Below the pieces are notes generated by a model. It worked only from the letters and a program-made list of their open reading frames with translations. It searched no databases and was not told the DNA's origin. A DNA stretch of 64,000 nucleotides. Source: Candidatus Melainabacteria bacterium (GTDB taxonomy: Bacteria > Cyanobacteriota > Vampirovibrionia > 2-02-FULL-35-15). The stretch is from assembly GCA_023250195.1 (NCBI GenBank), contig JAHFBF010000003.1:62001-126000 (forward strand), given 5' to 3'. The position numbers and the translations under genes are program-made. Below are positions 13,336 to 64,000 of this stretch, piece after piece (the first letter of the stretch is position 1; each line of letters starts with the position of its first letter).

Positions 13336-15012
13336 ATGAATAAAAAAGAAAAACCAATTAAATACATTCTATATGCCAGAAAATCTACTGAATCAGAAGA
13401 TAAACAGGTTCAATCTATTGAAGATCAAGTAAATAAAATGACTGAAATGGCTCAGCAGAAGGGTTTACAAATTATAGATGTATTGTGGGAAACCAAGTCA
13501 GCTAAAACCCCTTTTAAAAGAGATAAGTTTAATGAACTAATTAAAAGAGTTAAAGCAGGTGAAGCTGATGGGATACTAACATGGGCGATTAATAGGCTTT
13601 CAAGAAATGCCTTTGAGACGGGAGTGATACATCAGATGTTACAGGATGGAATCATTAAGTCTATATGGACATGCACTGGAGAACATAAATCAGGGGATAA
13701 CGTTTTAATTTTTTATATGCTCGGTGGTATGGCAAACCTGGACATTCAAATTACTAGCATTAGTACAAAACGTGGGTTAGAAAGTAAGATTGAAAAAGGT
13801 TGGCTACCTACTATTGCACCTATTGGGTATTTGAATAATAAGTTTAAAGACAAGGGAGAAAAGGATATTGTAAAAGATCCTGAACGATTTTCCATAGTTA
13901 GAAAAATGTGGGACTTAATGCTTACAGGAAATTATACAGTGCCACATATACTTAATATTGCCTATGAGAATTGGGGACTAAGAACAGTTAAAAGAAAAAG
14001 AATTGGTGGAACTAAACTTTCTAAATCAGGCTTATATAAAATCTTTACTAATCCGTTTTATGCAGGAATACTTGAATGGAAAGGGGAAAGATACCCTAAT
14101 CCAGGTAAGCATGAATCTATGATTACTCTTGAGGAGTTTTATAGAGTCCAGTTTATATTAGGTAAAAGAGGCAAGCCTAGAGTAACAAAACATCAACATA
14201 AATATAATGGTGTTCTTAAGTGTGCTGAATGTGGTTGTAGTTTCACTGGTGATCTAAAAAGAAAATATGCAAAGACTACAGGTAAATTAACTGAGTACAT
14301 ATTCTATAAATGCACTAAGAAGAAGCCTAACTATGATTGTCAAAACAGAAAGCATATAAGACAAGAAAAAATGGAAATGCAGATACAAGAAGCATTAAAC
14401 AATCTTTCTTTGATTCCTGACTTGTGTAAATGGTCTATTGAAACTTTAAAAATGACTAATGAAAAAGAGTTCGAAGAAAGGGAAGATATTCATAAGAGTT
14501 TAAATAGTGCCATTATTAATACTCAAAAACAATTAGATAATTTATTACAACTTAGAATAAGTGAATTAATTACAGATGAAGAATATAAGGGAAAAAGAGC
14601 TACACTTCAGGATGAGCTGTTTAGACTTAGGGAAAATTTAAGAGGTACAGAAGAAAGAGCTGATAAGTATCATCAGTTAGTCGAGGACGCTTTTGATTAT
14701 GTTACTTATGCAAAAGTCTGGTTTGATAAAGGTACTTACGAAGAGAAGAGATCAATAATGTCAACGTTAGGGTCGAACTTTTTGATAAACATTGGGGAAC
14801 TGCTAGTAACTAACAAAAATTGGATAGATTTGATTAAAGAGAAGTATGCTCCGGTAACGGATGAATATCGAAGGATCGAACTGGCTCATTCTGACAAATA
14901 CTTAACCGAAAATGAAAAACGGGAGCTTTTTGCTCCCGTAATTTCTAAACTCCTCCCAGGAGTGGGATCGAACCACCGACCAATCGGTTACTATCTGACT
15001 TCAATTTCTTGA
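13336..15012 (+). CDS. Large serine recombinase / integrase
   Basis: YILYARKSTESEDKQVQSIEDQ resolvase N-terminus, GMANLDIQITSISTKRGLESK, recombinase zinc beta ribbon LKCAECGCSFTG..YKCTKKKPNYDC; C-terminal residues encoded antisense to tRNA-Asn. Confidence 0.93.
   Translation: MNKKEKPIKYILYARKSTESEDKQVQSIEDQVNKMTEMAQQKGLQIIDVLWETKSAKTPFKRDKFNELIKRVKAGEADGILTWAINRLSRNAFETGVIHQMLQDGIIKSIWTCTGEHKSGDNVLIFYMLGGMANLDIQITSISTKRGLESKIEKGWLPTIAPIGYLNNKFKDKGEKDIVKDPERFSIVRKMWDLMLTGNYTVPHILNIAYENWGLRTVKRKRIGGTKLSKSGLYKIFTNPFYAGILEWKGERYPNPGKHESMITLEEFYRVQFILGKRGKPRVTKHQHKYNGVLKCAECGCSFTGDLKRKYAKTTGKLTEYIFYKCTKKKPNYDCQNRKHIRQEKMEMQIQEALNNLSLIPDLCKWSIETLKMTNEKEFEEREDIHKSLNSAIINTQKQLDNLLQLRISELITDEEYKGKRATLQDELFRLRENLRGTEERADKYHQLVEDAFDYVTYAKVWFDKGTYEEKRSIMSTLGSNFLINIGELLVTNKNWIDLIKEKYAPVTDEYRRIELAHSDKYLTENEKRELFAPVISKLLPGVGSNHRPIGYYLTSIS
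14920..14938 (-). terminator. Intrinsic terminator of tRNA-Asn
   Basis: CGGGAGC-AAAAA-GCTCCCG followed by TTTTTC on the minus strand, 15 bp past the tRNA 3' end; embedded in the integrase ORF. Confidence 0.8.
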
Positions 15013-15232
15013 AGAGTCGGACTTTCTCTTTATCCTCGACTTGACGTTAGGATAGTGGGTGTAAAGTCTCTGCACTTATCTAAGTTTTCTAAACTTAAAC
15101 TAGCTCAGGATTGCCTTTTACATTTCTGTAGTTAAGGGTTCCCTGAATTAGCCCACTTTTCACCACAATGTTTCCATTATGGGCTGCTAACTATGTTTAC
15201 AGCCGATCGCTCTACCGCTGAGCTACCTGGGA
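14953..15232 (-). tRNA. tRNA-Asn(GUU), split by a group I intron (exons 15232-15199 and 14990-14953)
   Basis: Spliced: TCCCAGGTAGCTCAGCGGTAGAGCGATCGGCTGTTAACCGATTGGTCGGTGGTTCGATCCCACTCCTGGGAG; full cloverleaf, anticodon GTT, CCA not encoded. Confidence 0.95.
14991..15198 (-). ncRNA. Group I self-splicing intron (compact, subgroup IC3-like) in tRNA-Asn anticodon
   Basis: P1: exon GGCUGU with IGS GCAGCC (U.G at splice site); P2 CCATAATG-GAAA-CATTGTGG; P3 GTGGG/CCCAC; P4 TTCAGG/CCTGAG; conserved GGCAATCCTGAGC and GTGCAGAGACT; P7 AGACTTT/AAAGTC; P8 ATCCT/AGGAT; P9 CTTCAA-GAAA-TTGAAG; terminal G. Confidence 0.95.
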
Positions 15233-24431: not shown

Positions 24432-27046
24432 AATACTAACCCCATTCCTTCTGTTTCAGCAATAGCTGCCTTTATACTATTTTTGCTTAACATCTGTACT
24501 ACTTCATTTAAATCACTTTCACAAAACCAGATTCTGAATTTTGCAATTTGTTTTAATTCAGAAACTAACAGGTTATATTCTAGTAAGTCATTAAAGTTCT
24601 GTCGAGAAGGATTTGAAATATTGATATTTAAGTTACCGTTATTCTTCTTATAAGATAAAAACCCAATTTTTACAAGTGTTTCCAGAGCAAATGCAAGAGC
24701 AGTTTTATTAATGCCAAGAGCAGCTTGTAATTCTGATTCAGTTACTGTTGAGTCTTTGTTGTTTACTGTGTATTTTAATAAACCGCTAAGATTCTTTAAT
24801 AAGTGTGTAGGGGCAGACCATGTTGGGGCAGACCATGTTGGGGCAGACCAATGTGTCTGCCCTGATGTAAAAGAAAGATAAACCGTTTCAGCATTGGATA
24901 ATTTTATAAGATCAATAAAAATATCTTCATCAGGCGGAGATTCCAGGAAAATAAGATTTTTAGCTTCAGGAATATTGGTTCTTGAATTTGTTTTTAATGG
25001 CAGATAATCCTTTTGTTTGGTTTCTGCAAAATAAGTTACAGATTCTTGTGTTGACGCAAGGAGTCCCAAGCATTCTTGTGTCTTTCCGCGAAAGTCATAA
25101 ATTCTGATAAAGCTTTCTTTTTTGATCTTCTGATTTTTGATTCTCTGATTCTCTAGCATTTGCCAGTCCTTAATTTCAAGCTGTATGAAAGTTTCTCCAT
25201 TAAAATGATTTAATTTTGGAGTATAAACGATTTTAATTTTTTCTCCAAGATTAAACGGGATTTTACTGTCGTGATTCCAGATTAGAGCTTCAAAAATGAG
25301 AGGTGAGAGATGAGAGGTGAGAGATGAAAATTCTTTTTTCTGATCTCTGATCTCTGATCTCTGATCTCTTAATTGTAGTTTCAAATGTTGTCCAGTTTTT
25401 CCAATACTTCTCATTCCGGAAATCTCAACTTCGTCGCTTACAAAAACCGGCAATGGATTTCCTAGTCCAAATGGTGATAGCTTATATATTTTTTCCAGCA
25501 AATCCAGATTCAGTTCACTAAGTGACAGTCCTGAATCTATTTTTATTATGGCTTCAAGGGTTTCATTGGCAAGTTTTTTATCTACAAAGTTTTTAAAATC
25601 AAAAATAAAATTACTTATCTTTTCTGGTTTAATGCTAAGTCCGCATGCAGCTTTATGTCCGCCATATTTTTCAAGATGAGTGGAGCTGTTTATAAGTGCT
25701 TCAACAATATTTAATTTTTCAATACTTCTTCCTGACCCGCGAGCAGTATTTTGTTCATTATCAATTGCAATTAATATGGTGGGTAAATGGAACTTTTCAA
25801 CCACTCTTGACGCTACTATGCCAATTACACCGTGATGCCAGTTTTCTTTTGCTAAAACTATGCACTTATCATTTTTAATATCTACCTGTTCGGAAATAAG
25901 CAACATCGCTTCCTTAAGTGTTTCTTCACAGATTAATTGTCTTTCTTTATTTTGTGATTCAAGCTCACATGCAATTTGCACAGCTTCAAACAAATCATTT
26001 GTAGTTAAAAGTTTTACAGCACGTGCGGCATCTGTTAATCTGCCTACTGCATTAATCCTGGGAGCAATTCCAAAACCAATGTGTTCAGCATTTGGTTTAT
26101 TTGCACTCTCTTCTTTAAGACATCCGCACATTTTAAGGAGTTCTTGTAGACCAATTTTCTTTGTCTTTGCTAGCTTTTTTAGCCCGACTTGAACTAAATA
26201 TCTATTTTCATCTAAAAGTGGAGCAAGATCAGCTATCATCCCAAGCGCTACAAGATCGAGAAGATCTTCTTTTGTTACGTCATTGCGAGGAGGCACAAAG
26301 TGCCGACGTGGCAATCTCCCTAACGTTTTGGAGATTGCTTCGTCGCTTTGCTCCTCGCAATGACGTAATGCGAATTTCTGTTCTAATATTGATTCAGCTA
26401 ACTTATAAGCCACTCCCACACCTGGCAGCCAGTGCAGCTTGTGATCCGGTGGCAATAATTTTGGATTTAAAACAGCATGTGCAGGTGGCAAAATTTCCGG
26501 GAGTGAATGATGATCGGTAACTATAACATCCATTCCAAGCTCATTTGCAAGTTCGACTTCTTTATGATTTGTTATTCCACAGTCACAGGTAATTAATAAT
26601 TTTGTTTTGTTTTTCTTGGACATTGTTTTAACAGCTTCAATGTTTAACCCATAACCTTCTGTCAATCTGCTTGGAATATAAAAGTCAATATTTTCAGTAA
26701 ATTGTCTGAGAGTAGTTAGCAGACAGGCAGTAGAGGTTACTCCGTCTACATCATAATCACCAAAGATGGTTATATTTTCTTTTTTATTTAGAGCTTTTAT
26801 GATTCGATCTTTTGCTTTTATTAATTCAGGGATTTCTTCAGGTTTTGATTCTTTATAAAAATCAGGATTTAAGTAAGCTTTTGCAGCTTCAGGTGAAGTG
26901 ATATTTCTGTTTAACAATAACTTTGCAATAATTTCAGAACCATAAGCAATATCAAGAAACTCTTTTGTGATTTCTTTTTGTTCTTTTATTAGCCACTTGT
27001 ATTTCAAATTATTTTTATTTCCTTGCTTCTCTTCCTCTTTTATCAA
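24428..27046 (-). CDS. recJ: Single-stranded-DNA exonuclease RecJ with in-frame repeat insertions
   Basis: DYDVDGVTSTACL, VTDHHSLPEILPPAHAVLNPK, GGHKAACGLSI. Confidence 0.97.
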   Translation of the reverse strand: MIKEEEKQGNKNNLKYKWLIKEQKEITKEFLDIAYGSEIIAKLLLNRNITSPEAAKAYLNPDFYKESKPEEIPELIKAKDRIIKALNKKENITIFGDYDVDGVTSTACLLTTLRQFTENIDFYIPSRLTEGYGLNIEAVKTMSKKNKTKLLITCDCGITNHKEVELANELGMDVIVTDHHSLPEILPPAHAVLNPKLLPPDHKLHWLPGVGVAYKLAESILEQKFALRHCEEQSDEAISKTLGRLPRRHFVPPRNDVTKEDLLDLVALGMIADLAPLLDENRYLVQVGLKKLAKTKKIGLQELLKMCGCLKEESANKPNAEHIGFGIAPRINAVGRLTDAARAVKLLTTNDLFEAVQIACELESQNKERQLICEETLKEAMLLISEQVDIKNDKCIVLAKENWHHGVIGIVASRVVEKFHLPTILIAIDNEQNTARGSGRSIEKLNIVEALINSSTHLEKYGGHKAACGLSIKPEKISNFIFDFKNFVDKKLANETLEAIIKIDSGLSLSELNLDLLEKIYKLSPFGLGNPLPVFVSDEVEISGMRSIGKTGQHLKLQLRDQRSEIRDQKKEFSSLTSHLSPLIFEALIWNHDSKIPFNLGEKIKIVYTPKLNHFNGETFIQLEIKDWQMLENQRIKNQKIKKESFIRIYDFRGKTQECLGLLASTQESVTYFAETKQKDYLPLKTNSRTNIPEAKNLIFLESPPDEDIFIDLIKLSNAETVYLSFTSGQTHWSAPTWSAPTWSAPTHLLKNLSGLLKYTVNNKDSTVTESELQAALGINKTALAFALETLVKIGFLSYKKNNGNLNINISNPSRQNFNDLLEYNLLVSELKQIAKFRIWFCESDLNEVVQMLSKNSIKAAIAETEGMGLVL
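24807..24862. repeat. GGGCAGACCATGTTG tandem repeat (15 bp x3) in recJ
   Basis: Encodes WSAPT x3; related palindrome at 53898-53923. Confidence 0.85.
25296..25371. repeat. GAGAGGTGAGAGAT and CTGATCT tandem tracts in recJ
   Basis: Encodes LRDQRSEIRDQKKEFSSLTSHLSPLIF. Confidence 0.85.
26277..26366. repeat. GTCATTGCGAGG...CCTCGCAATGAC palindromic repeat inside recJ, in frame
   Basis: 90 bp; encodes LRHCEEQSDEAISKTLGRLPRRHFVPPRNDV. Confidence 0.92.
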
Positions 27047-38037: not shown

Positions 38038-38125
38038 GTCATTGCGAGGAGCGTTAGCGACGAAGCAATCCCAGGCTAACTTGCGCAAAGATTGCCACGT
38101 CTCACTTTGTTCGGCTCGCAATGAC
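38038..38125. repeat. GTCATTGCGAGG...CTCGCAATGAC palindromic repeat
   Basis: Intergenic aroQ-obgE. Confidence 0.9.
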
Positions 38126-51170: not shown

Positions 51171-52553
51171 ATGTTTTTTTCTGATGAAGAAAATTCTGCC
51201 AGTAGAAATTTTATTATTACAGCAGTTATATGGTTAGTAGTTGGAATGACACTAGGTTTAACCGGTGCGTTGGAATTTACTGCTCCTGATATGAGTACGG
51301 GAATCGCTCAGTTAACCTTCTCCAGAATAAGACCTGCACATGTCAACACTGTTGCTTTTGGCTGGTTATCAATGGCAAATATTGGAATTGTTCTTTATAT
51401 AATTCCTACTCTGACCAGATCAAAACTTTTCAGTAATAAACTTGCAAACTTTGTTTGTCTTCTCTGGAATCTTGCAATTCTATTTGGTGGATTGTGTCTG
51501 GTAAACGGTTATACGGAAGGTCGAGAATATGCCGAATACCCGGTTCCTATTGATGTAGTAGTAATTATTGGATTACTTACGCTTTCATTTGTCGTTTATA
51601 TGACGGCTATAACAAGGACAGTAAAAAAACTATATGTAAGTCTTTGGTATATGCTCGGGGCATTTTTCTGGATGCCTATTGTTTATTTTATTGGAAACAG
51701 GACTTTTATAAGATTAGACGGATTAAATGATGGGATCGTAAACTGGTTTTATGGACATAATATTTTAGGAATGTGGTTTACCACGCTTGGTGTTGGGATT
51801 GCATATTATATGATTCCAAAATTAAGTGGTCGTCCACTATGGAGTCATAGCTTATCTATGCTTGGTTTCTGGACAATTGCATTTTTCTATGCACCTACAG
51901 GGACACATCACATTCTTCAGTCGCCTGTTCCTGAATGGTTAAAAGCGCTTGCAGTAGTATTTAGTGTTGCACTTGTTATTCCTGTTATTACGGTGCTTAC
52001 AAACTTTTGCATGACAATGAAAGGAAACTGGTGGCAGCTTGCAAATAATTTACCTCTGCGTTTTGTTTTAACAGGAGCTTTCTTTTATTTTACTACCTGT
52101 ATCCAAGGTCCTTTTCAGGCGACCAGGTCTATTAACTGGTACCTTCACTTTACACAGTGGGTTGTAGGACATGCTCATGTAGCGCTTCTTGGTACATTTA
52201 CATTTTTTGATTTTGGAGCTATCTATTATATCTTGCCTAGAATTTTAAAGAGACAAATTTATAGTGTTGCTTTAGCAAGGGCACATTACTGGTTTACACT
52301 AATTGGGTTTTTAATCTTTTTTGCGGCAATGACAATTGGTGGATTGGTTCAGTCAGCAGGATGGCACTTAGGAATTCCAGTCAGCCAGTGGGGACTTGAA
52401 ATGCCTCCATACTGGGTATTCCGTGCAATTGGTGGAAGCCTGATGTGGTTTGGAAATATTTTATTCCTTATTAATGTAATCCAAACTGCAAGAGGTGTTA
52501 AGCCGCTTAATCCTCCAGATATAGAACCTGCAATGTCACCGGCAAAGGGATAG
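51171..52553 (+). CDS. ccoN: Cbb3-type cytochrome c oxidase subunit I
   Basis: RIRPAHVNTVAFGWLSMANIG; WFYGHNILGMWFTTLGVGIAYYMIPK; FTQWVVGHAHVALLGTFTFF. Confidence 0.96.
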   Translation: MFFSDEENSASRNFIITAVIWLVVGMTLGLTGALEFTAPDMSTGIAQLTFSRIRPAHVNTVAFGWLSMANIGIVLYIIPTLTRSKLFSNKLANFVCLLWNLAILFGGLCLVNGYTEGREYAEYPVPIDVVVIIGLLTLSFVVYMTAITRTVKKLYVSLWYMLGAFFWMPIVYFIGNRTFIRLDGLNDGIVNWFYGHNILGMWFTTLGVGIAYYMIPKLSGRPLWSHSLSMLGFWTIAFFYAPTGTHHILQSPVPEWLKALAVVFSVALVIPVITVLTNFCMTMKGNWWQLANNLPLRFVLTGAFFYFTTCIQGPFQATRSINWYLHFTQWVVGHAHVALLGTFTFFDFGAIYYILPRILKRQIYSVALARAHYWFTLIGFLIFFAAMTIGGLVQSAGWHLGIPVSQWGLEMPPYWVFRAIGGSLMWFGNILFLINVIQTARGVKPLNPPDIEPAMSPAKG

Positions 52554-52558
52554 GGTAA

Positions 52559-53524
52559 ATGAATTCAAACAACAAAAATTATATTCTTCCCGCAATAGTA
52601 ATTTTGTTTTCATTTAGCATGATTATGTTTTCTACAGTACTTTTGCCAAATATGATTTTTAAACCAAAGCCTTCTGAATTTGCAGTAAAGTATACTCCTC
52701 TTGAAGCGCGCGGAAGAAAAATTTATATGAAAGAAGGCTGTGTTTATTGCCATAGTCAGTTTGTAAGACCTCAGGATAGAGACTTTGGACCACTTGTTAT
52801 GGCTGGTGATTATGTATATGAAACACCAAATTTATTAGGAACGATTAGAACTGGTCCTGATCTTTCAAATGAAGGGGGTAAGCATCCTGATGCATGGCAC
52901 CTTGCACACTTTAAAAATCCAAGAACAGTAACTCCTGGTTCAGTAATGCCTCCATTTGTTTACTTAAAAGATGATGAAATGAAAGCTCTTATTGCTTATG
53001 TCCAATCAATAGGCAAAAAGAGACTTGTAAAATATCAGAGAATCTATCATCCTGATGAACTTGACAAAGTTCTGGAAAAAAGAAAAGTTAATGTAGATAG
53101 CTCTGCTGCTGCAAATGCTGGAAGAGGAATTTTCCAGCAGAACTGTGCTACATGCCATGGTACTCATGGGCTTGGAAATGGTCCAAATGCAATTGCTATT
53201 GGTAAAAAACCGGCAAACTTTTCAAGACCATTTTATAAAGATTATGATGATGTAACCTGGTTCTGGAGAGTCTCAGAAGGTGTTCCCGGAACAAGAATGC
53301 CTCAGTGGGAAAGACTTCTAACTGCAGAGCAGAGATGGTATCTTGTCGCATTTTTAAAGACCATTCCAAGAGAAAATGAAGTTTATCCAAAAGCATATGA
53401 AAATCTTAATGCTGAAAAATGGGTTGAGCAAAATATAATTTCCGAGAAAGAGTTGAATTCTCAAAAACCGGCAATGATTATTGAAACGAAGGGTCCGCCA
53501 CCGGCAGCAGGAGGGGGACATTAA
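52559..53524 (+). CDS. Cbb3 oxidase CcoO fused to a second cytochrome c domain
   Basis: EGCVYCHSQFVRPQDRDFGPLVMAGDYVYETPNLLGTIRTGPDLSNEG (CcoO) plus C-terminal QQNCATCHGTHGLGNGPNA...TRMPQWE. Confidence 0.93.
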   Translation: MNSNNKNYILPAIVILFSFSMIMFSTVLLPNMIFKPKPSEFAVKYTPLEARGRKIYMKEGCVYCHSQFVRPQDRDFGPLVMAGDYVYETPNLLGTIRTGPDLSNEGGKHPDAWHLAHFKNPRTVTPGSVMPPFVYLKDDEMKALIAYVQSIGKKRLVKYQRIYHPDELDKVLEKRKVNVDSSAAANAGRGIFQQNCATCHGTHGLGNGPNAIAIGKKPANFSRPFYKDYDDVTWFWRVSEGVPGTRMPQWERLLTAEQRWYLVAFLKTIPRENEVYPKAYENLNAEKWVEQNIISEKELNSQKPAMIIETKGPPPAAGGGH

Positions 53525-53730
53525 TGAATATAACAGCACAAGAAGTAATTCATGACTTAATAGCAAGACCAGGACTGGGGATGTTTGCATGGTTATGCTT
53601 TATATTTTTTATAGTAGCTTTTGCTATTTTTATCTGGGCTTTAAAGTCGGGGCAAATGACTGATGTTGAACAGGCGAAATTTGATATGTTAGAAGATAAT
53701 CCAAAGAAGGAGATTCATAACAATGGCTGA
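53524..53730 (+). CDS. Small membrane subunit, CcoQ-like position
   Basis: Single TM MFAWLCFIFFIVAFAIFIWALKSGQM. Confidence 0.65.
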   Translation: MNITAQEVIHDLIARPGLGMFAWLCFIFFIVAFAIFIWALKSGQMTDVEQAKFDMLEDNPKKEIHNNG

Positions 53731-53893
53731 AGAAATAAAACATGAATATGAACCTCTTTGTCAGGTTCCTCAGGTTACAAAGCCTGAAGAATATAGAATG
53801 GGTGAGCATAAGCCCCCTATATTTTTAGTTGTATTATTCTTCCTTGTTTTTGTATGGGCAATGATTTCATGGATTCCATTTTTTGGGTACTGA
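53723..53893 (+). CDS. Small membrane protein in cbb3 operon (56 aa)
   Basis: MAEEIKHEYEPLCQVPQVTKPEEYRMGEHKPPIFLVVLFFLVFVWAMISWIPFFGY; absent from ORF track. Confidence 0.75.
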   Translation: MAEEIKHEYEPLCQVPQVTKPEEYRMGEHKPPIFLVVLFFLVFVWAMISWIPFFGY

Positions 53894-53945: not shown

Positions 53946-54749
53946 ATGGGGCGTAAAAAACAAATAACAGGAATATTAAAGACAGTCACACTAGTAATGT
54001 CCATTGTAATAGTGGGGATTTTAATTACTGCCTGCCAATCAAATTTGAATATAAATAAAGTAGCACTACCATCTAATCAAAAACCATTAATCAGTCAAAA
54101 AGGTACTCAGGAAGATTTTGCATACCCTACAAAAGATCCATCGATAGTAGAGGGCAAAAAATTATTTGGTCAGAATTGTGCTTCATGTCATAGTTTTGGG
54201 AATCAGGGTGGAAAGAATGTATTCACTCTTAAATACATAAATAGTGTTACTCCTTCTCACTTATTTAAAACGATTACAAGCAGTGATAAACATGAATCAT
54301 TTAAAGATAAACTAAACAGGCAGGAAAGATGGGAGCTGGTTATGTACCTGCGCTCTGAACTGTTTGGTTTGCCAAAAGATTTTGAAGATGTAAAAATAAA
54401 ATTTGGAAGTAATTGTGCTGTATGTCATGGTACAAGAGGTTTTGCAGATGGACCTATTCATTACTATTTAAATCCTCCTCCTGCAAACTTCAATGAGTTT
54501 GACAGACTTTATGAAAAAACCGATGCAAAGATCTTTGATGAAATCTCAAATGGGATTCCCTGGACAGCAATGCCTCCATGGGCAAACAGAGTTGATAAAG
54601 ATAAGCATTTTACATTTGATGATAAGTTCAGATGGGAGCTTGTTAAGTATGTAAGGAGCTTTGGTTATTCTACTGAAAAAGATGCTTTGCTTGAGCTTTT
54701 AAAGCCTGATAAAAAGGTTCAGTCAGAAAAAGTTGAAGAGGATAAATAA
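53946..54749 (+). CDS. Diheme cytochrome c lipoprotein
   Basis: Two CxxCH (CASCH, CAVCH); lipobox-like LITAC. Confidence 0.9.
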   Translation: MGRKKQITGILKTVTLVMSIVIVGILITACQSNLNINKVALPSNQKPLISQKGTQEDFAYPTKDPSIVEGKKLFGQNCASCHSFGNQGGKNVFTLKYINSVTPSHLFKTITSSDKHESFKDKLNRQERWELVMYLRSELFGLPKDFEDVKIKFGSNCAVCHGTRGFADGPIHYYLNPPPANFNEFDRLYEKTDAKIFDEISNGIPWTAMPPWANRVDKDKHFTFDDKFRWELVKYVRSFGYSTEKDALLELLKPDKKVQSEKVEEDK

Positions 54750-54751
54750 AA

Positions 54752-55318
54752 ATGGATTTTGAAACAACAAGGCGAAATTTATTAAAAGGAATATTAGCAA
54801 TTCCTGTTTTAGGAACATTAGCTGCTGCTGTATCTCCTTTTATGAGGTTTTTAAAACCTACCATTAAACCTCTGAATTATATGCAGGGACCGGATTTGCC
54901 AAAGTCTTTAAAGCCAGTAATGTTTGATCTCTCTTTATTTACAAAACCATTTGATGTTCAGTCATTTAATTTTACACAGGTAAATAAAGAATATACTGCG
55001 CTTGGTACACAGATGAGAGACATACCGGGATATGCTGTAAAACTTCCAAGTGGAGAATTTGCAGTTTACAGTAGAATCTGTCCTCATCTTGGCTGTGTTT
55101 TTAACTTTGTTCCAAATCCTGATGATGTGGCAAAAGGTTATAACTTTAGACCAGATGGACCAGTGTTTGCATGTCCATGCCATTTAAGTGTTTTTGATAT
55201 TCAAAAAGAAGGACAGGTTGTTTCAGGTCCTGCACCAAGGCCACCAAGAAAATTTGTTTATAAAATCGAAAACAATCAGTTAATTATTAGTGATCTTGAG
55301 AGTGGAGGGGTTGCATAA
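54752..55318 (+). CDS. Rieske [2Fe-2S] protein
   Basis: CPHLGCVFNF...FACPCHLSVFD; N-terminal anchor. Confidence 0.95.
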   Translation: MDFETTRRNLLKGILAIPVLGTLAAAVSPFMRFLKPTIKPLNYMQGPDLPKSLKPVMFDLSLFTKPFDVQSFNFTQVNKEYTALGTQMRDIPGYAVKLPSGEFAVYSRICPHLGCVFNFVPNPDDVAKGYNFRPDGPVFACPCHLSVFDIQKEGQVVSGPAPRPPRKFVYKIENNQLIISDLESGGVA

Positions 55319-55331
55319 TATGATGTTTGGT

Positions 55332-55420
55332 GTCATTGCGAGAAACGTTAGTGACGAAGCAATCTCCAAAGCGTTAGGGAGATTGCCGCGTCGGCACTTT
55401 GTGCCTCCTCGCAATGACGT
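55332..55420. repeat. GTCATTGCGAGA...CTCGCAATGAC palindromic repeat inside respiratory operon
   Basis: Between Rieske and cytochrome b genes. Confidence 0.9.
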
Positions 55421-55433
55421 GAATAGGTAATTT

Positions 55434-56774
55434 ATGATCGACAAATTAAAAGAAATTGGAAAACAGCAATTTGAAACCTCTAAAAAGTGGGTTTTGGACC
55501 ACATTAATAATATTGATATTTTTGATGAGCACTATGTAGATAAAGCAAAGACAAATCCCTGGTATACGCTGGGTTCACTGGTATGGTTATTCTGGATGAT
55601 AACAATTATTTCTGGTTGTGTTTTAATGGCAATTTATATTCCATCTATAAATGAAGCTTATGATTCAATTGTTAAAATACAGTTCCAAATTCCTTTTGGT
55701 GCAATAATCAGAGGTGTTCATAAGTATGGAGCAGATGCGGTTATTATCGCAGCCACGATTAGGCTTTATAGAATTTTTATTGCATGTGACTATAAACCAA
55801 ATAGGGAGTTTAATGTAGCAATTGCACTTCTTACTTTATTGCTTGGAATGTATTCAGGTTTGACCGGCTATCTTCTAATCTGGAATCAGCGAGCGTTCTG
55901 GGCTACAAAGGTTTTTGCAACCTTTCCTACTTATGTCGAAAGTTTTTATCTTCTTGGTCCTACACATGTTGGCATAAATACTTCACAAATTCTTTTAGGC
56001 GGAAGTTCAATTGGACAGGCTACAATGACAAGATTTTATTCTTTTCATACAGCATTTACCCTGATTCCATTGATTATTGTTGAACTGTACTTTTATAGAA
56101 ATGGACTTAAGAGATTTAATATTCCCTGGAAATTAGCTTTAATTCCCATTTTCATGGTATTTATTACTGCAATTGTTCTTCCTGCACAAATTGGTCACAG
56201 AGCAGATCCCAGCGTAACACCGCTGCCGATTTTATCCGACTGGTACTTCCTGGCACTTTATCAATTCTTGAAATATATGGAGCCTGTCTGGGCAACTGCT
56301 CTTACAGTGTTGATTCCAGCGACTGTAGTTGTTCTTCCATTCTTGGATCTTGGATCAGAAACAAGAATATTAAAAAGACCAATATTTTTAATGGTAACCA
56401 TAATGGGCTTTATTCAGTTCTTGGTTTTTTCAGGATTAATAATTATGAACATTGCAAATATTCACAGAGATCCACCTATTTGGAGAGCTGGAACCTGGAT
56501 ATTGATTGCCGTTGGAGTTGTATGGCAGTATATTAATCAAAAGACTGAAAGACCCGAAAAGCTGTTTGTAGCAATTGGTGACTTTATTGCATATGTAGTT
56601 TGTCCTCTTTTTGTTTTGTACTGGGTATTTCCCACACTCTTAAATGGCTGGATAACTTTAAAGCAACAGCTTGAGGGAGTGGGTATTTGTATGATTCCTG
56701 CGGTGATTGCTTATACATGGCATTTGCTTATTAGGAAAAAACTTGTAAAACCACAGGAAGCAGTGCTGGCATGA
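55434..56774 (+). CDS. Cytochrome b (bc1/b6f type)
   Basis: FGAIIRGVHKYGADAVIIAATIRLYRIF; GLTGYLLIWNQRAFWATKV; PILSDWYFLALYQFLK. Confidence 0.9.
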   Translation: MIDKLKEIGKQQFETSKKWVLDHINNIDIFDEHYVDKAKTNPWYTLGSLVWLFWMITIISGCVLMAIYIPSINEAYDSIVKIQFQIPFGAIIRGVHKYGADAVIIAATIRLYRIFIACDYKPNREFNVAIALLTLLLGMYSGLTGYLLIWNQRAFWATKVFATFPTYVESFYLLGPTHVGINTSQILLGGSSIGQATMTRFYSFHTAFTLIPLIIVELYFYRNGLKRFNIPWKLALIPIFMVFITAIVLPAQIGHRADPSVTPLPILSDWYFLALYQFLKYMEPVWATALTVLIPATVVVLPFLDLGSETRILKRPIFLMVTIMGFIQFLVFSGLIIMNIANIHRDPPIWRAGTWILIAVGVVWQYINQKTERPEKLFVAIGDFIAYVVCPLFVLYWVFPTLLNGWITLKQQLEGVGICMIPAVIAYTWHLLIRKKLVKPQEAVLA

Positions 56775-57130
56775 TGAAAAAAATGAAGATAACTAGAATT
56801 TTTACTTTTTGTTTGTCAGTTTATTTTCTGTCTGTTTTTTTTGAAGCCGGCAGATTGCTTGCTTATGAAAAAACATTTATTCACTTAGGAATTTCGCTCT
56901 TTTCAGGATTCATGTTTATTCTTTCTCTCTTAGTAATAGGCTATTGGGTGTACAGTGAAGAAAAAGAAAAAAATAATCTAAAGGTAAAATTTGGTTTATA
57001 TGAATGGTTCTACAATCTTCCGATTAACGTCATTGCGAGAAGCAAAGCGATGAAGCAATCTCATAACGTTAGTGGATTGCCGCGTCAGCACTTTGTGCCT
57101 CCTCGCAATGACAAAGAAGTGGTAGCATGA
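56771..57130 (+). CDS. Small membrane protein with repeat-derived C-terminus
   Basis: C-terminal NVIARSKAMKQSHNVSGLPRQHFVPPRNDK encoded by the palindromic repeat. Confidence 0.65.
   Translation: MMKKMKITRIFTFCLSVYFLSVFFEAGRLLAYEKTFIHLGISLFSGFMFILSLLVIGYWVYSEEKEKNNLKVKFGLYEWFYNLPINVIARSKAMKQSHNVSGLPRQHFVPPRNDKEVVA
57027..57112. repeat. GTCATTGCGAGA...CTCGCAATGAC repeat, coding
   Basis: In frame within 56771-57130. Confidence 0.9.
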
Positions 57131-57345
57131 AAGCACTCATCCAATTATTAATAGCTGGTTTATGTGCTCTTGGCACAATGGTGATTTTATTTCTTTTAGC
57201 AACCAGTGAGTTAAGCTACAGAGATATAACATTTGCAAAGTATTTTGGAATGCTTGGAGTTCTTGCAGCAATAGCGTTTGTTGTTTTGACAAATAATGAT
57301 GATAACGAAGAGACTAATCCAGGAAAGGAGAAGTTGAAAAAATAA
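57127..57345 (+). CDS. Small membrane protein
   Basis: Two TM segments; ATGA overlap with upstream gene. Confidence 0.6.
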   Translation: MKALIQLLIAGLCALGTMVILFLLATSELSYRDITFAKYFGMLGVLAAIAFVVLTNNDDNEETNPGKEKLKK

Positions 57346-57348
57346 AAT

Positions 57349-58479
57349 ATGTACAGGAAAATCTTAGACAAACTGCAAGTACTAACAATTGACTTTGAAA
57401 AGTTCTTAAATAAAGTATTTAGTCAACAATATAATCCTTTCTATTACCATGGTGCAGTGCCAAATCTTTTCATGTGGACATTATTTATAACAGGACTTTT
57501 ATTGTTTGCCTACTTTCAACCTACCTTAGACAGTGCTTATATTTCAGTAAATTATATTTCTACAAAGATTCCATTTGGGCAGATAGTGCGTGGATTACAT
57601 AGATATGCTGCAGATGCAATGGTGATTGCAGTATTAATTCATGCTATCAGGGTCTTCTTTACTGATAGATATAGAAAATATCGTTGGATTGCATGGTATT
57701 CAGGAGTTGCACTTTTGCTTTGCATGTTTGTCATTGGTGTAACTGGATATGTGCTTGTCTGGGATGAGCGTTCTTATATGATTGTTTTAATGATGACAGA
57801 TGCTCTGAATCAAATACCCTTTATAGGACAGACACTTGCAAAATTATTTGTAAATGGTGAAGTAATCACTCATTACACAATGGCAATGTCATTTTTTATA
57901 CATGTTGGAATTTCATTCTTCCTTTTATATTTAATTTGGTTACACTATGTAAGAATCTCAAGACCGGTTACAGATGTTCCGCTTGGGCTTGGAATGTTGC
58001 TTTTTTCATTGATAATGATTCCTGCAGCTCTTATTCCTGTAGTGAGTGGAAAACCTGCAGTGCTTACTGAAACACCACATGAGTTTCCTATCGACTGGTT
58101 TTATCTCTGGATTTTCCCTTTATTTTCAGGAATGCCGGCTTTAATAGTCTGGACTGGCTTATTTGTAGCAGTAGCAATTTTGCTTCTTGTTCCATATTTG
58201 ATAGTGGATATTCCAAAATCACCAGCTGCAGTTTCACTGGATAATTGTGTGGGATGTACTCTCTGTGCAAAGGATTGTCCATATGAAGCTATTTACATGG
58301 TTCCAAGGACAGATCATCCAAAGTATAAACAGCTTGCAATAGTAATAGATTCTCGTTGTGCTGAATGTGGTCTTTGTGTTGGAGCATGTGCATTTAAAGC
58401 AATTGATTTACCGCAAAAGCATTCAAAAGAAATCATTGCAAAGATTGGTGATGTCTTAAAGGAGCCGATTACGGTGTAG
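57349..58479 (+). CDS. Cytochrome b fused to C-terminal 2x[4Fe-4S] ferredoxin domain
   Basis: FGQIVRGLHRYAADAMVIAVLIHAIRVFF (b-type heme) then CVGCTLCAKDCP...CAECGLCVGACAFKAI. Confidence 0.93.
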   Translation: MYRKILDKLQVLTIDFEKFLNKVFSQQYNPFYYHGAVPNLFMWTLFITGLLLFAYFQPTLDSAYISVNYISTKIPFGQIVRGLHRYAADAMVIAVLIHAIRVFFTDRYRKYRWIAWYSGVALLLCMFVIGVTGYVLVWDERSYMIVLMMTDALNQIPFIGQTLAKLFVNGEVITHYTMAMSFFIHVGISFFLLYLIWLHYVRISRPVTDVPLGLGMLLFSLIMIPAALIPVVSGKPAVLTETPHEFPIDWFYLWIFPLFSGMPALIVWTGLFVAVAILLLVPYLIVDIPKSPAAVSLDNCVGCTLCAKDCPYEAIYMVPRTDHPKYKQLAIVIDSRCAECGLCVGACAFKAIDLPQKHSKEIIAKIGDVLKEPITV

Positions 58480-58487
58480 AACTGTAG

Positions 58488-58507
58488 GGGCAGGATTTAT
58501 CCTGCCC
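58488..58507. repeat. GGGCAGGATTTATCCTGCCC palindrome
   Basis: Intergenic, terminator-like hairpin. Confidence 0.6.
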
Positions 58508-58525
58508 TTCTTAGGGTAAGAAAAG

Positions 58526-58909
58526 ATGACAAACAAAAAAAAGAAAATATTAGGTATAGTTTGCGAACGAAGTGTTGATTTAAAAAAACACATTCAAAAG
58601 AACAAGCTTAAAGACAAAGACAATGTATCTATTGTAGAACTTACCTGTTCCGGGATGATTCAGCCAGTAATGCTTGAAGAAGCTTTTAAACAGGGTGCTG
58701 AGGGTGTTTTTGTAATGGGATGTCAGATTGGGGACTGTCATTTTCGTGAAGGAAATAAATGGTGTCAGGAAAGATTACTTGGACAAAGACCCCCAAATAT
58801 TAAAAAAACAGTAGATAAAAATAAAGTCAGAGGATATTGGCTGGCAAAATGTGATTATAAAAAATTTCTGGATAAGGTTAATAAATTTGAGGAAGATTTG
58901 TGTAAGTAG
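58526..58909 (+). CDS. MvhD/FlpD-like (hydrogenase/heterodisulfide reductase-associated delta subunit) protein
   Basis: IVCERS...VELTCSGMIQPVMLEEAFKQGAEGVFVMGCQIGDCHFREGN. Confidence 0.87.
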   Translation: MTNKKKKILGIVCERSVDLKKHIQKNKLKDKDNVSIVELTCSGMIQPVMLEEAFKQGAEGVFVMGCQIGDCHFREGNKWCQERLLGQRPPNIKKTVDKNKVRGYWLAKCDYKKFLDKVNKFEEDLCK

Positions 58910-58961: not shown

Positions 58962-59105
58962 ATGTCAACAGTAAAAGATGCAAAATATGTAATGGGCGGC
59001 AGTATTTCACCAATCAAGTTGTTCTTTAGCTATGTACTTTTCTATCTGCACTTTTTTATCTGGTTGTTATTGATAGCTAGTTTTGGAGTAATAGCAGAGT
59101 TCTAA
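58962..59105 (+). CDS. Small TM protein (47 aa)
   Basis: MSTVKDAKYVMGGSISPIKLFFSYVLFYLHFFIWLLLIASFGVIAEF; absent from ORF track. Confidence 0.55.
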   Translation: MSTVKDAKYVMGGSISPIKLFFSYVLFYLHFFIWLLLIASFGVIAEF

Positions 59106-62925: not shown

Positions 62926-63381
62926 TTAAATATCTATTCCCAAATCCACAAAGCTCTTTGATATCCCTTTATAAGAATCTATAGTATCTGTAAACTCATC
63001 AGGATTAATTAATGTAGCAAGGCTTGCATCATTTCTGGCAGGTGTTTCAAAAACCTGTTCGTTTCCGTTTTCATCTTTTGTAGTCCAGATTGTTTTGTCT
63101 TTGTAAGCACGTGCTTTTAATATCCCCGGTTTACCGGTAATTTCAAATGGCAGTCTTATATCAATAGCCTGCTGAGGACAAATTTTTATACATGCTGCAC
63201 AATCCCAGCAATCAGCGTTACAGGTGATTTGTGCTTTTCCATTTGGCTGCATGAAAATAAGATCTCCCGGACAAGCCATGTTACATGGGGTTTCATGTTC
63301 TGGAAACCCGCAGCCGTTGCATAGATTTTGATCGATGTAAATGCCCATAAGTTTAATTATAAAGGTGTAGGGACGTTGCAT
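62926..63381 (-). CDS. 4Fe-4S ferredoxin, adenylylsulfate reductase beta (AprB)-like; true start likely MGIYID
   Basis: NLCNGCGFPEHETPCNMACPGDLIFMQPNGKAQITCNADCWDCAACIKICPQQAIDI. Confidence 0.78.
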   Translation of the reverse strand: MQRPYTFIIKLMGIYIDQNLCNGCGFPEHETPCNMACPGDLIFMQPNGKAQITCNADCWDCAACIKICPQQAIDIRLPFEITGKPGILKARAYKDKTIWTTKDENGNEQVFETPARNDASLATLINPDEFTDTIDSYKGISKSFVDLGIDI

Positions 63382-64000
63382 GCAACGTCCCTACTTCGTT
63401 CTATGATTTTAATTTCATCCTTTCTTTGATCATAAATTGAGTTAACAAATTTCAGCCAGTTTTTATCATCACGTTCAGGATAATCGGCTCGGCTCTGGTA
63501 AATAGGCCACCTGGTTTCTTTTCTGTATAAAAGATGTTCTATAAGTACACTTGCTACATCCAGTCTGTCTATAACTTCATGACACTTCATAAGTTCATGT
63601 AGAGATATAGTTACACCATCTTTACTTGCAAAAAGATTTTTTGATTCTTCTTTTAATTGTTTTATATGTTTCCTGCCTTTTAATAATTTTTGTTCATTTA
63701 AAATATAACCACTGGTTACTCCGCCTGCATATTCATCCATAACTTTCTGCATGCGTAATTCCAATTCGTCCGGCTGTAGAGACGTTGCGTGCAACGTCTC
63801 TAACAGGGGATTAAAGACCCTTTTCATTTCATCTTTTATATCCTTTTCATAAATTTGTTCTTCATTTATATTTTTTAATTTTGAAACGATGTTTCTAGCT
63901 GCAATTATTCCTTCAGCACCGGCACCGGATAAATATTTTTTTGGAGCTCCACCGGCTACATCACCTGCAGCATAAAGGTTTTCAATGGTTGCCATCCTGT
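63357..64000 (-). CDS. FAD-dependent fumarate reductase/AprA-like flavoprotein, C-terminal part (truncated by window edge)
   Basis: ENLYAAGDVAGGAPKKYLSGAGAEGIIAARNI; RWPIYQSRADYPERDDKNWLKFV; adjacent AprB-like gene. Confidence 0.75.
   Translation of the reverse strand, partial: RMATIENLYAAGDVAGGAPKKYLSGAGAEGIIAARNIVSKLKNINEEQIYEKDIKDEMKRVFNPLLETLHATSLQPDELELRMQKVMDEYAGGVTSGYILNEQKLLKGRKHIKQLKEESKNLFASKDGVTISLHELMKCHEVIDRLDVASVLIEHLLYRKETRWPIYQSRADYPERDDKNWLKFVNSIYDQRKDEIKIIERSRDVACNVPTPL
63367..63394. repeat. Perfect palindrome GTAGGGACGTTGCATGCAACGTCCCTAC
   Basis: Forms the 3' end of the AprA-like gene. Confidence 0.9.
63776..63804. repeat. GTAGAGACGTTGCGTGCAACGTCTCTAAC palindrome in AprA-like gene
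   Basis: Encodes LLETLHATSLQ. Confidence 0.88.

Follow-up and report, generated by a model that had tools for sequence, protein, structure and literature searches.

In bc1 and b6f complexes, cytochrome b is the product of one gene. The cooperation of the two halves of complex III was examined in engineered Rhodobacter-type (R. capsulatus) bc1 dimers, a B-B fusion with Qo knocked out on one side and heme bH on the other (G158W / H212N); the construct was active, and electrons crossed from bL to bL in milliseconds (PMC4330944). Proteins of the MvhD/FlpD family are known as parts of HdrABC-MvhAGD and QmoABC. QmoB ends with an MvhD-like domain, and QmoC combines 4Fe-4S clusters with a membrane part (PMC4911364). 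For Melainabacteria, petB/petC genes beside a C-type oxidase and a complex III/IV combination have been described (PMC6349859), Obscuribacter was reported to have a complete respiratory chain (PMC4040986), and a non-cyanobacterial origin was assigned to complex III of these bacteria (PMC8235220). The passages considered from these three papers contain no mention of two cytochromes b, a missing heme site, or a ferredoxin-FlpD port. In the open-access literature, we found no natural asymmetric bc complex and no described cytochrome b–ferredoxin fusion; an open reading frame (ORF) that joins cytochrome b, two 4Fe-4S clusters, and FlpD in one chain (RME88945.1) is present in a domain table, without discussion (PMC8756737).

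The window analyzed here is a 64,000-nt stretch from a Candidatus Melainabacteria genome (2.2 Mb, 99% complete) in which FlpD is a single-copy gene. Its forward strand contains an operon with the gene order ccoN–ccoOP–diheme cytochrome c–Rieske–cytochrome b1–b-Fd–FlpD, interspersed with FixS-like and other small membrane proteins and closed by the b-Fd/FlpD pair. The first genes encode subunit I of cbb3 oxidase (ccoN, 51171..52553; PF00115, E 1.4e-86), a fusion of CcoO with a CcoP-like cytochrome c (52559..53524; PF02433 and PF00034), a FixS-like small protein (53524..53730; its homologue in locus L003 matches PF03597), and a 56–amino acid (aa) single-TM protein whose position in the operon is conserved (53723..53893). 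They are followed by a diheme cytochrome c with a lipoprotein-like N terminus and two CxxCH motifs (53946..54749; PF13442/PF00034) and a Rieske [2Fe-2S] protein (CPHLGC...CPCH; 54752..55318; PF00355), whose CxHxGC/CxCH ligand pattern is present in 40/40 homologues. A 446-aa cytochrome b, here called b1 (55434..56774), is separated from b-Fd by a small membrane protein (56771..57130) and a 72-aa membrane protein located directly before b-Fd (57127..57345). A 47-aa single-TM protein after FlpD (58962..59105) is present in relatives of family f1. The cytochrome b fold, the bL and Rieske ligands, the position of Qo, the c-type cytochrome, and the shared operon with cbb3 oxidase are all as in bc1 and b6f systems. 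In contrast to them, the locus has two unlike cytochrome b genes, of which one lacks bH ligands and the other carries a ferredoxin and has an FlpD partner.

REP/MITE-like repeats (GTCATTGCGAG...CTCGCAATGAC) are located between operon genes at 55332-55418 and 57029-57112; the second of these copies alters the 3′ end of gene 56771-57130 and changes the C terminus of its product compared to homologues. Further copies were found at 26279-26364, 38038-38125, and 44553. The window also contains a full-model match to a group I intron (RF00028, 94 bits; 14998-15208, reverse strand) in an apparent integrated element; a serine recombinase-like gene (13336-15012) has its 3′ end at this place on the other strand. 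A PADLOC scan gave no match.

The sequence-only reading of this DNA had proposed a cytochrome b–ferredoxin fusion next to an MvhD-like protein with conserved Cys residues (CSGM and GCQIGDCHF), and both ORFs were confirmed. The fusion (b-Fd, 376 aa; 57349..58479) matches PF00033 at residues 22 to 203 (E 1.7e-30) and Fer4 models at residues 294 to 351. Its top match in a PDB search was cytochrome b6 (E 3e-28), while the ferredoxin domain resembles the C-terminal ferredoxin of HdrA. An AF2 model of b-Fd had a pLDDT of 58 (<50 in the ferredoxin part), and the folds that it matched in the PDB were those of cytochrome b6/bc1. The score against the ExtP selenite/tellurite cytochrome b model NF040969 was 139.9 bits, below the cut-off of 290. 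The b-heme helices are retained, as the earlier reading held: the heme bL ligands H84/H185 (codon starts 57598 and 57901) and the heme bH ligands H98/H199 (57640 and 57943) are all His in 53/53 homologues. At the position of b6 Cys35 (heme cn), b-Fd has Tyr-His in 52/53 sequences, and this b6f feature is without a match. The iron-sulfur clusters CVGCTLCAKDCP and CAECGLCVGACA correspond to two full CxxCxxCxxxC motifs (C300, 303, 306, 310 and C337, 340, 343, 347; domain at 58228..58404), with the eight Cys kept in 52/53 homologues.

The neighboring FlpD/MvhD-like [2Fe-2S] protein (127 aa; 58526..58909) belongs to PF02662 (E 1.3e-22; 80.5 bits at a cut-off of 22.3), matches the MvhD chains 5odc_D and 8rvv_F in the PDB, and has C13, C41, C66, and C71 kept in 51/51 homologues, so the Cys ligands on which the earlier assignment depended are conserved in both proteins. 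The gap between b-Fd and FlpD is mostly <70 bp. The location of FlpD directly downstream, together with the existence of single-chain cytochrome b–ferredoxin–FlpD fusions (see below), makes it very likely that b-Fd and FlpD touch. According to hydropathy, six helices precede the ferredoxin and basic loops are inside; this topology suggests that the ferredoxin domain faces the cytoplasm, where heme bH also lies.

The ligand positions of b1 were obtained from a profile alignment to b6 and a multiple alignment. H96/H205 (codon starts 55719 and 56046) align on the bL ligands H86 and H187 of b6. At the bH positions, R110 (codon start 55761) aligns on b6 H100, and b6 H202 falls on Y219/F220 (Y219 codon start 56088). 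The four positions read H-R-H-Y in 42/52 b1 sequences and H-K-H-Y in 10/52, with both bH His gone in 52/52; the sequence sets contain at least one probable duplicate contig pair (L011 and L156). Since the loss is seen in 52 sequences, sequencing error was ruled out as its source. The four His are kept in all 25 other cytochromes b compared. Thus, of the features of complex III, the bL ligands are invariant in both b1 and b-Fd, and the complete set of four His is present in b-Fd only. The n-side helix-C Gly beside the bH site is found in 20/52 b1 sequences, compared to 53/53 in b-Fd and 25/25 in the other cytochromes. Unlike b6 and subunit IV of b6f, b1 is unsplit. An AlphaFold model of b1 built with 11 sequences had a pLDDT of 42 and no usable fold.

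The opposite is seen at Qo. In b1, the PILSDWY motif and the cd1 W-A pair are each present in 52/52 sequences. In b-Fd, the cd1 Trp is absent and the next residue is Leu/Ile/Val (53/53), and the ef motif is variable (IDWFF, FDLLY, LSFLY, and others). The PIDWFYLW segment, taken earlier as PEWY-like, does lie at the PEWY position, but its variation among homologues argues against taking it for a functional Qo motif. To compare the two proteins over one common history, identities were calculated for 51 genomes with both b1 and b-Fd. Overall identity was similar (0.64 for b1 and 0.62 for b-Fd), but it was 0.97 in b1 versus 0.42 in b-Fd at ef/PEWY and 0.85 versus 0.47 at cd1. For n-side elements, the relation was reversed: 0.77 in b-Fd versus 0.56 in b1 and 0.60 versus 0.46. 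None of 20,000 column permutations gave a contrast between Qo and the n-side as large as this, and the contrast holds with one genome per family. Such reciprocal conservation is expected if b1 and b-Fd share one catalytic cycle.

Homologous loci were found in Candidatus Melainabacteria/Caenarcanales genomes and in one uncultured bacterium, with the same gene order where the contig allows. Among 387 genomes of the phylum, the full-length fusion was present in 9, all in the window's class and each with exactly one FlpD. A class-wide search of 384 genomes revealed b1 in 78, b-Fd in 80, and both in 77, i.e., in 77 of the 81 genomes with either; the exceptions (one and three) are contig edges or incomplete genomes. 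In 40/40 further regions from the Vampirovibrionia-like class, b1, b-Fd, and FlpD follow the Rieske gene in that order, and the full order from ccoN is seen in 39 of them, the remaining one beginning at a contig end. Family f43 includes large genomes (3 to 9 Mb), which probably belong to Obscuribacterales. No relatives were found in the viral contigs scanned. A third cytochrome b (360 aa) with four His and an intact PEWY is encoded in another part of the window's genome, at G000:C1:450292-451272 (L088). Its homologues in L087, L076, and L068 have a monoheme cytochrome c (CxxCH) as neighbor, with no Rieske gene seen in these short loci. G076, a genome of the same genus, has the third cytochrome b yet lacks b1, b-Fd, and FlpD.

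The phylogeny of cytochromes b was reconstructed with ligand columns removed. The comparison of the b-Fd cytochrome with 55434-56774, suggested by the sequence-only reading, placed them in separate clades (support of 100/98 for b-Fd and 100/99 for b1). The b-Fd clade includes a protein from Defluviimonas sp. (Alphaproteobacteria; WP_347309654.1), and a recent duplication of b1 into b-Fd was therefore rejected. The two clades together were separated from b6, bc1, and others with a support of 96/90; since the branches are long, their sister relation is tentative. Descent from cyanobacterial b6 was unsupported, as neither b1 nor b-Fd groups with it. The Defluviimonas protein, encoded on a plasmid, has a related architecture: cytochrome b, two 4Fe-4S clusters, and FlpD are joined in one chain with 32% identity over 96% of b-Fd, and the four His and eight Cys are all present. 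It differs in being a single polypeptide located beside a heme-copper oxidase-like gene, and its neighborhood contains neither b1 nor Rieske. This oxidase-like subunit I is unusual, with 59 bits to CtaD only, and genes for heme O synthase, SCO, and hemerythrin are found in the same plasmid region (L059:10510-16481).

The earlier reading saw b-Fd and FlpD as a membrane-to-cytosol electron relay. The connection between membrane and cytosol, though not necessarily its direction, agrees with the topology, the 1:1 pairing with FlpD, and the Defluviimonas fusion. The pair itself is real, but that reading contained neither the complex III/IV operon setting nor the lack of bH ligands in b1 nor the degenerate Qo of b-Fd. 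Given these three features, it is more probable that the relay makes up half of a heterodimeric complex III than that the pair works by itself. Complementary cytochrome b defects in one operon suggest a natural lopsided complex III. Probably, this is an asymmetric bc-type heterodimer in which b-Fd and FlpD form the half on the cytosolic side, whereas the other half consists of b1, Rieske, and the diheme cytochrome c. That this heterodimer is obligate, with Qo and n-side chemistry on different cytochrome b subunits, each turnover passing through bL-bL, and a covalently attached Fd-FlpD port to cytosolic redox carriers, seems to us an even bet. As in the engineered bc1 fusion, a Qo half without bH and a bH half without a working Qo would be linked by bL-bL only; in contrast to that laboratory construct, there are two diverged natural genes and a cytosolic Fd/FlpD port.

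The invariant Qo and the presence of Rieske and cco genes lead us to infer that quinol would be oxidized at Qo of b1, with one electron going through Rieske and cytochrome c to cbb3 oxidase. The second electron would pass to heme bL of b1 and, as the protein has no heme bH site, would have to hop to heme bL and then to heme bH of b-Fd. There, it could reduce quinone in a Q cycle–like manner or be exchanged with the fused ferredoxin and FlpD, which would serve as a fixed port to cytosolic carriers. Under aerobic conditions, we favor inward flow, from a cytosolic reductant through FlpD and ferredoxin to bH and quinone.

A different division of labor would make b-Fd and FlpD a separate FlpD/ferredoxin:quinone oxidoreductase, with b-Fd as a homodimer and b1 forming its own homodimeric complex III with one b heme per subunit. 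The Defluviimonas fusion, found with no b1 or Rieske neighbor, speaks against the heterodimer here, since it implies that the module can work without b1, and b-Fd, having both hemes, could function alone. A b1 homodimer, however, would strand the low-potential electron from Qo on bL with no route to a quinone-reducing site, although Qo is its most conserved part, and the near-perfect 1:1 co-occurrence, adjacency, and reciprocal loss would be left unexplained; we consider two separate enzymes unlikely. The heme count of b1 could also be larger than its His residues suggest. All 52 sequences have Tyr at position 219 and a basic residue at position 110, which leaves room for another n-side ligation or function, and an n-side heme might be held by Tyr219, Lys/Arg110, or a residue of a small membrane protein; His-Lys ligation of a b heme was functional in engineered bc1 (PMC4807273). 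Yet both His are missing in every sequence, residue 110 is Arg, not a normal axial ligand, in 42/52, and the Gly near the heme is relaxed in b1; we regard such ligation as improbable.

Another possibility concerns direction within the same complex: in outward bifurcation, the low-potential electron would travel through bL-bL-bH to Fd-FlpD and on to a cytosolic acceptor, for example ferredoxin or a flavoprotein; AprAB could take this role in family f1. Ferredoxin and FlpD are hard-wired on the bH side, POR/KOR-type genes are present in the genome, and NuoF is not found there, which would make a quinol-to-cytosol route useful. However, transfer from the p- to the n-side opposes the membrane potential and is then uphill to 4Fe-4S, no HdrA-type flavin partner lies beside the operon, and the sole CCG protein is distant. 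Low-potential 4Fe-4S clusters beside heme bH, energetically awkward for outward flow, also count against the heterodimer. We regard outward bifurcation as improbable.

Candidate cytosolic partners adjoin the operon in family f1 only. They are an AprB-like ferredoxin (62926..63381, reverse strand; TIGR02060, 59.6 bits, below the cut-off) and an AprA-like flavoprotein that runs past the window end (63357..64000, reverse strand; NF005331, 799.7 bits on L056, above the cut-off of 557). AprA above the cut-off adjoins the operon in all seven tested f1 genomes with b-Fd; it is absent from G366, G342, and G076, and Apr is absent in family f5 and f6 genomes that retain b-Fd. Apr as a universal partner was therefore rejected. 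In family f1, AprAB could donate electrons to the port, as in QmoABC run backwards. The window's genome also encodes ATP sulfurylase; to our knowledge, the lineage is not known for sulfur oxidation. The domain likeness to Qmo, i.e., an MvhD-like domain, 4Fe-4S clusters, and a membrane subunit next to AprAB, means that Apr, FlpD, ferredoxin, and cytochrome b could act in a Qmo-like way (PMC4911364). By the features tested, the system is not a Qmo: its cytochrome b is of the bc type (PF00033) and not of the NarI/HdrE type, and the operon has no HdrA-like QmoA/B flavoproteins.

The FlpD fold family, its four conserved Cys, and the HdrA-like ferredoxin are shared with HdrABC-MvhAGD. Here, however, FlpD is tied to a membrane cytochrome b, and the genome, judged by its one FlpD and one CCG protein located far off, seems to have no HdrABC/Mvh operon; no Hdr partners for FlpD were found in it. 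The CCG protein (690 aa; L057:3987-6059, G000:C6), which has two CCG domains besides 4Fe-4S and a membrane domain of the NarI-like kind, presumably resembles HdrD-type ETF:menaquinone oxidoreductases. In another member of the phylum (L055, G006:C81), FlpD is clustered with HdrA-like flavoproteins and a 4Fe-4S HdrE/QmoC-like membrane protein. With NuoH present, NuoF not found, and two POR-type genes in the window's genome, ferredoxin is plausible as the main carrier.

Whether electrons pass from one half of complex III to the other is a long-standing question, and the only tests that we found used engineered dimers. In this class of bacteria, evolution seems to have made the cross-inactivated arrangement permanent, which offers a natural system for the bL-bL question. 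The heterodimer would be a complex III that has its own iron-sulfur port to the cytosol, a parallel to the ferredoxin:quinone activity that has been suggested for cytochrome b6f, and would define the respiratory chain of non-photosynthetic close relatives of cyanobacteria.
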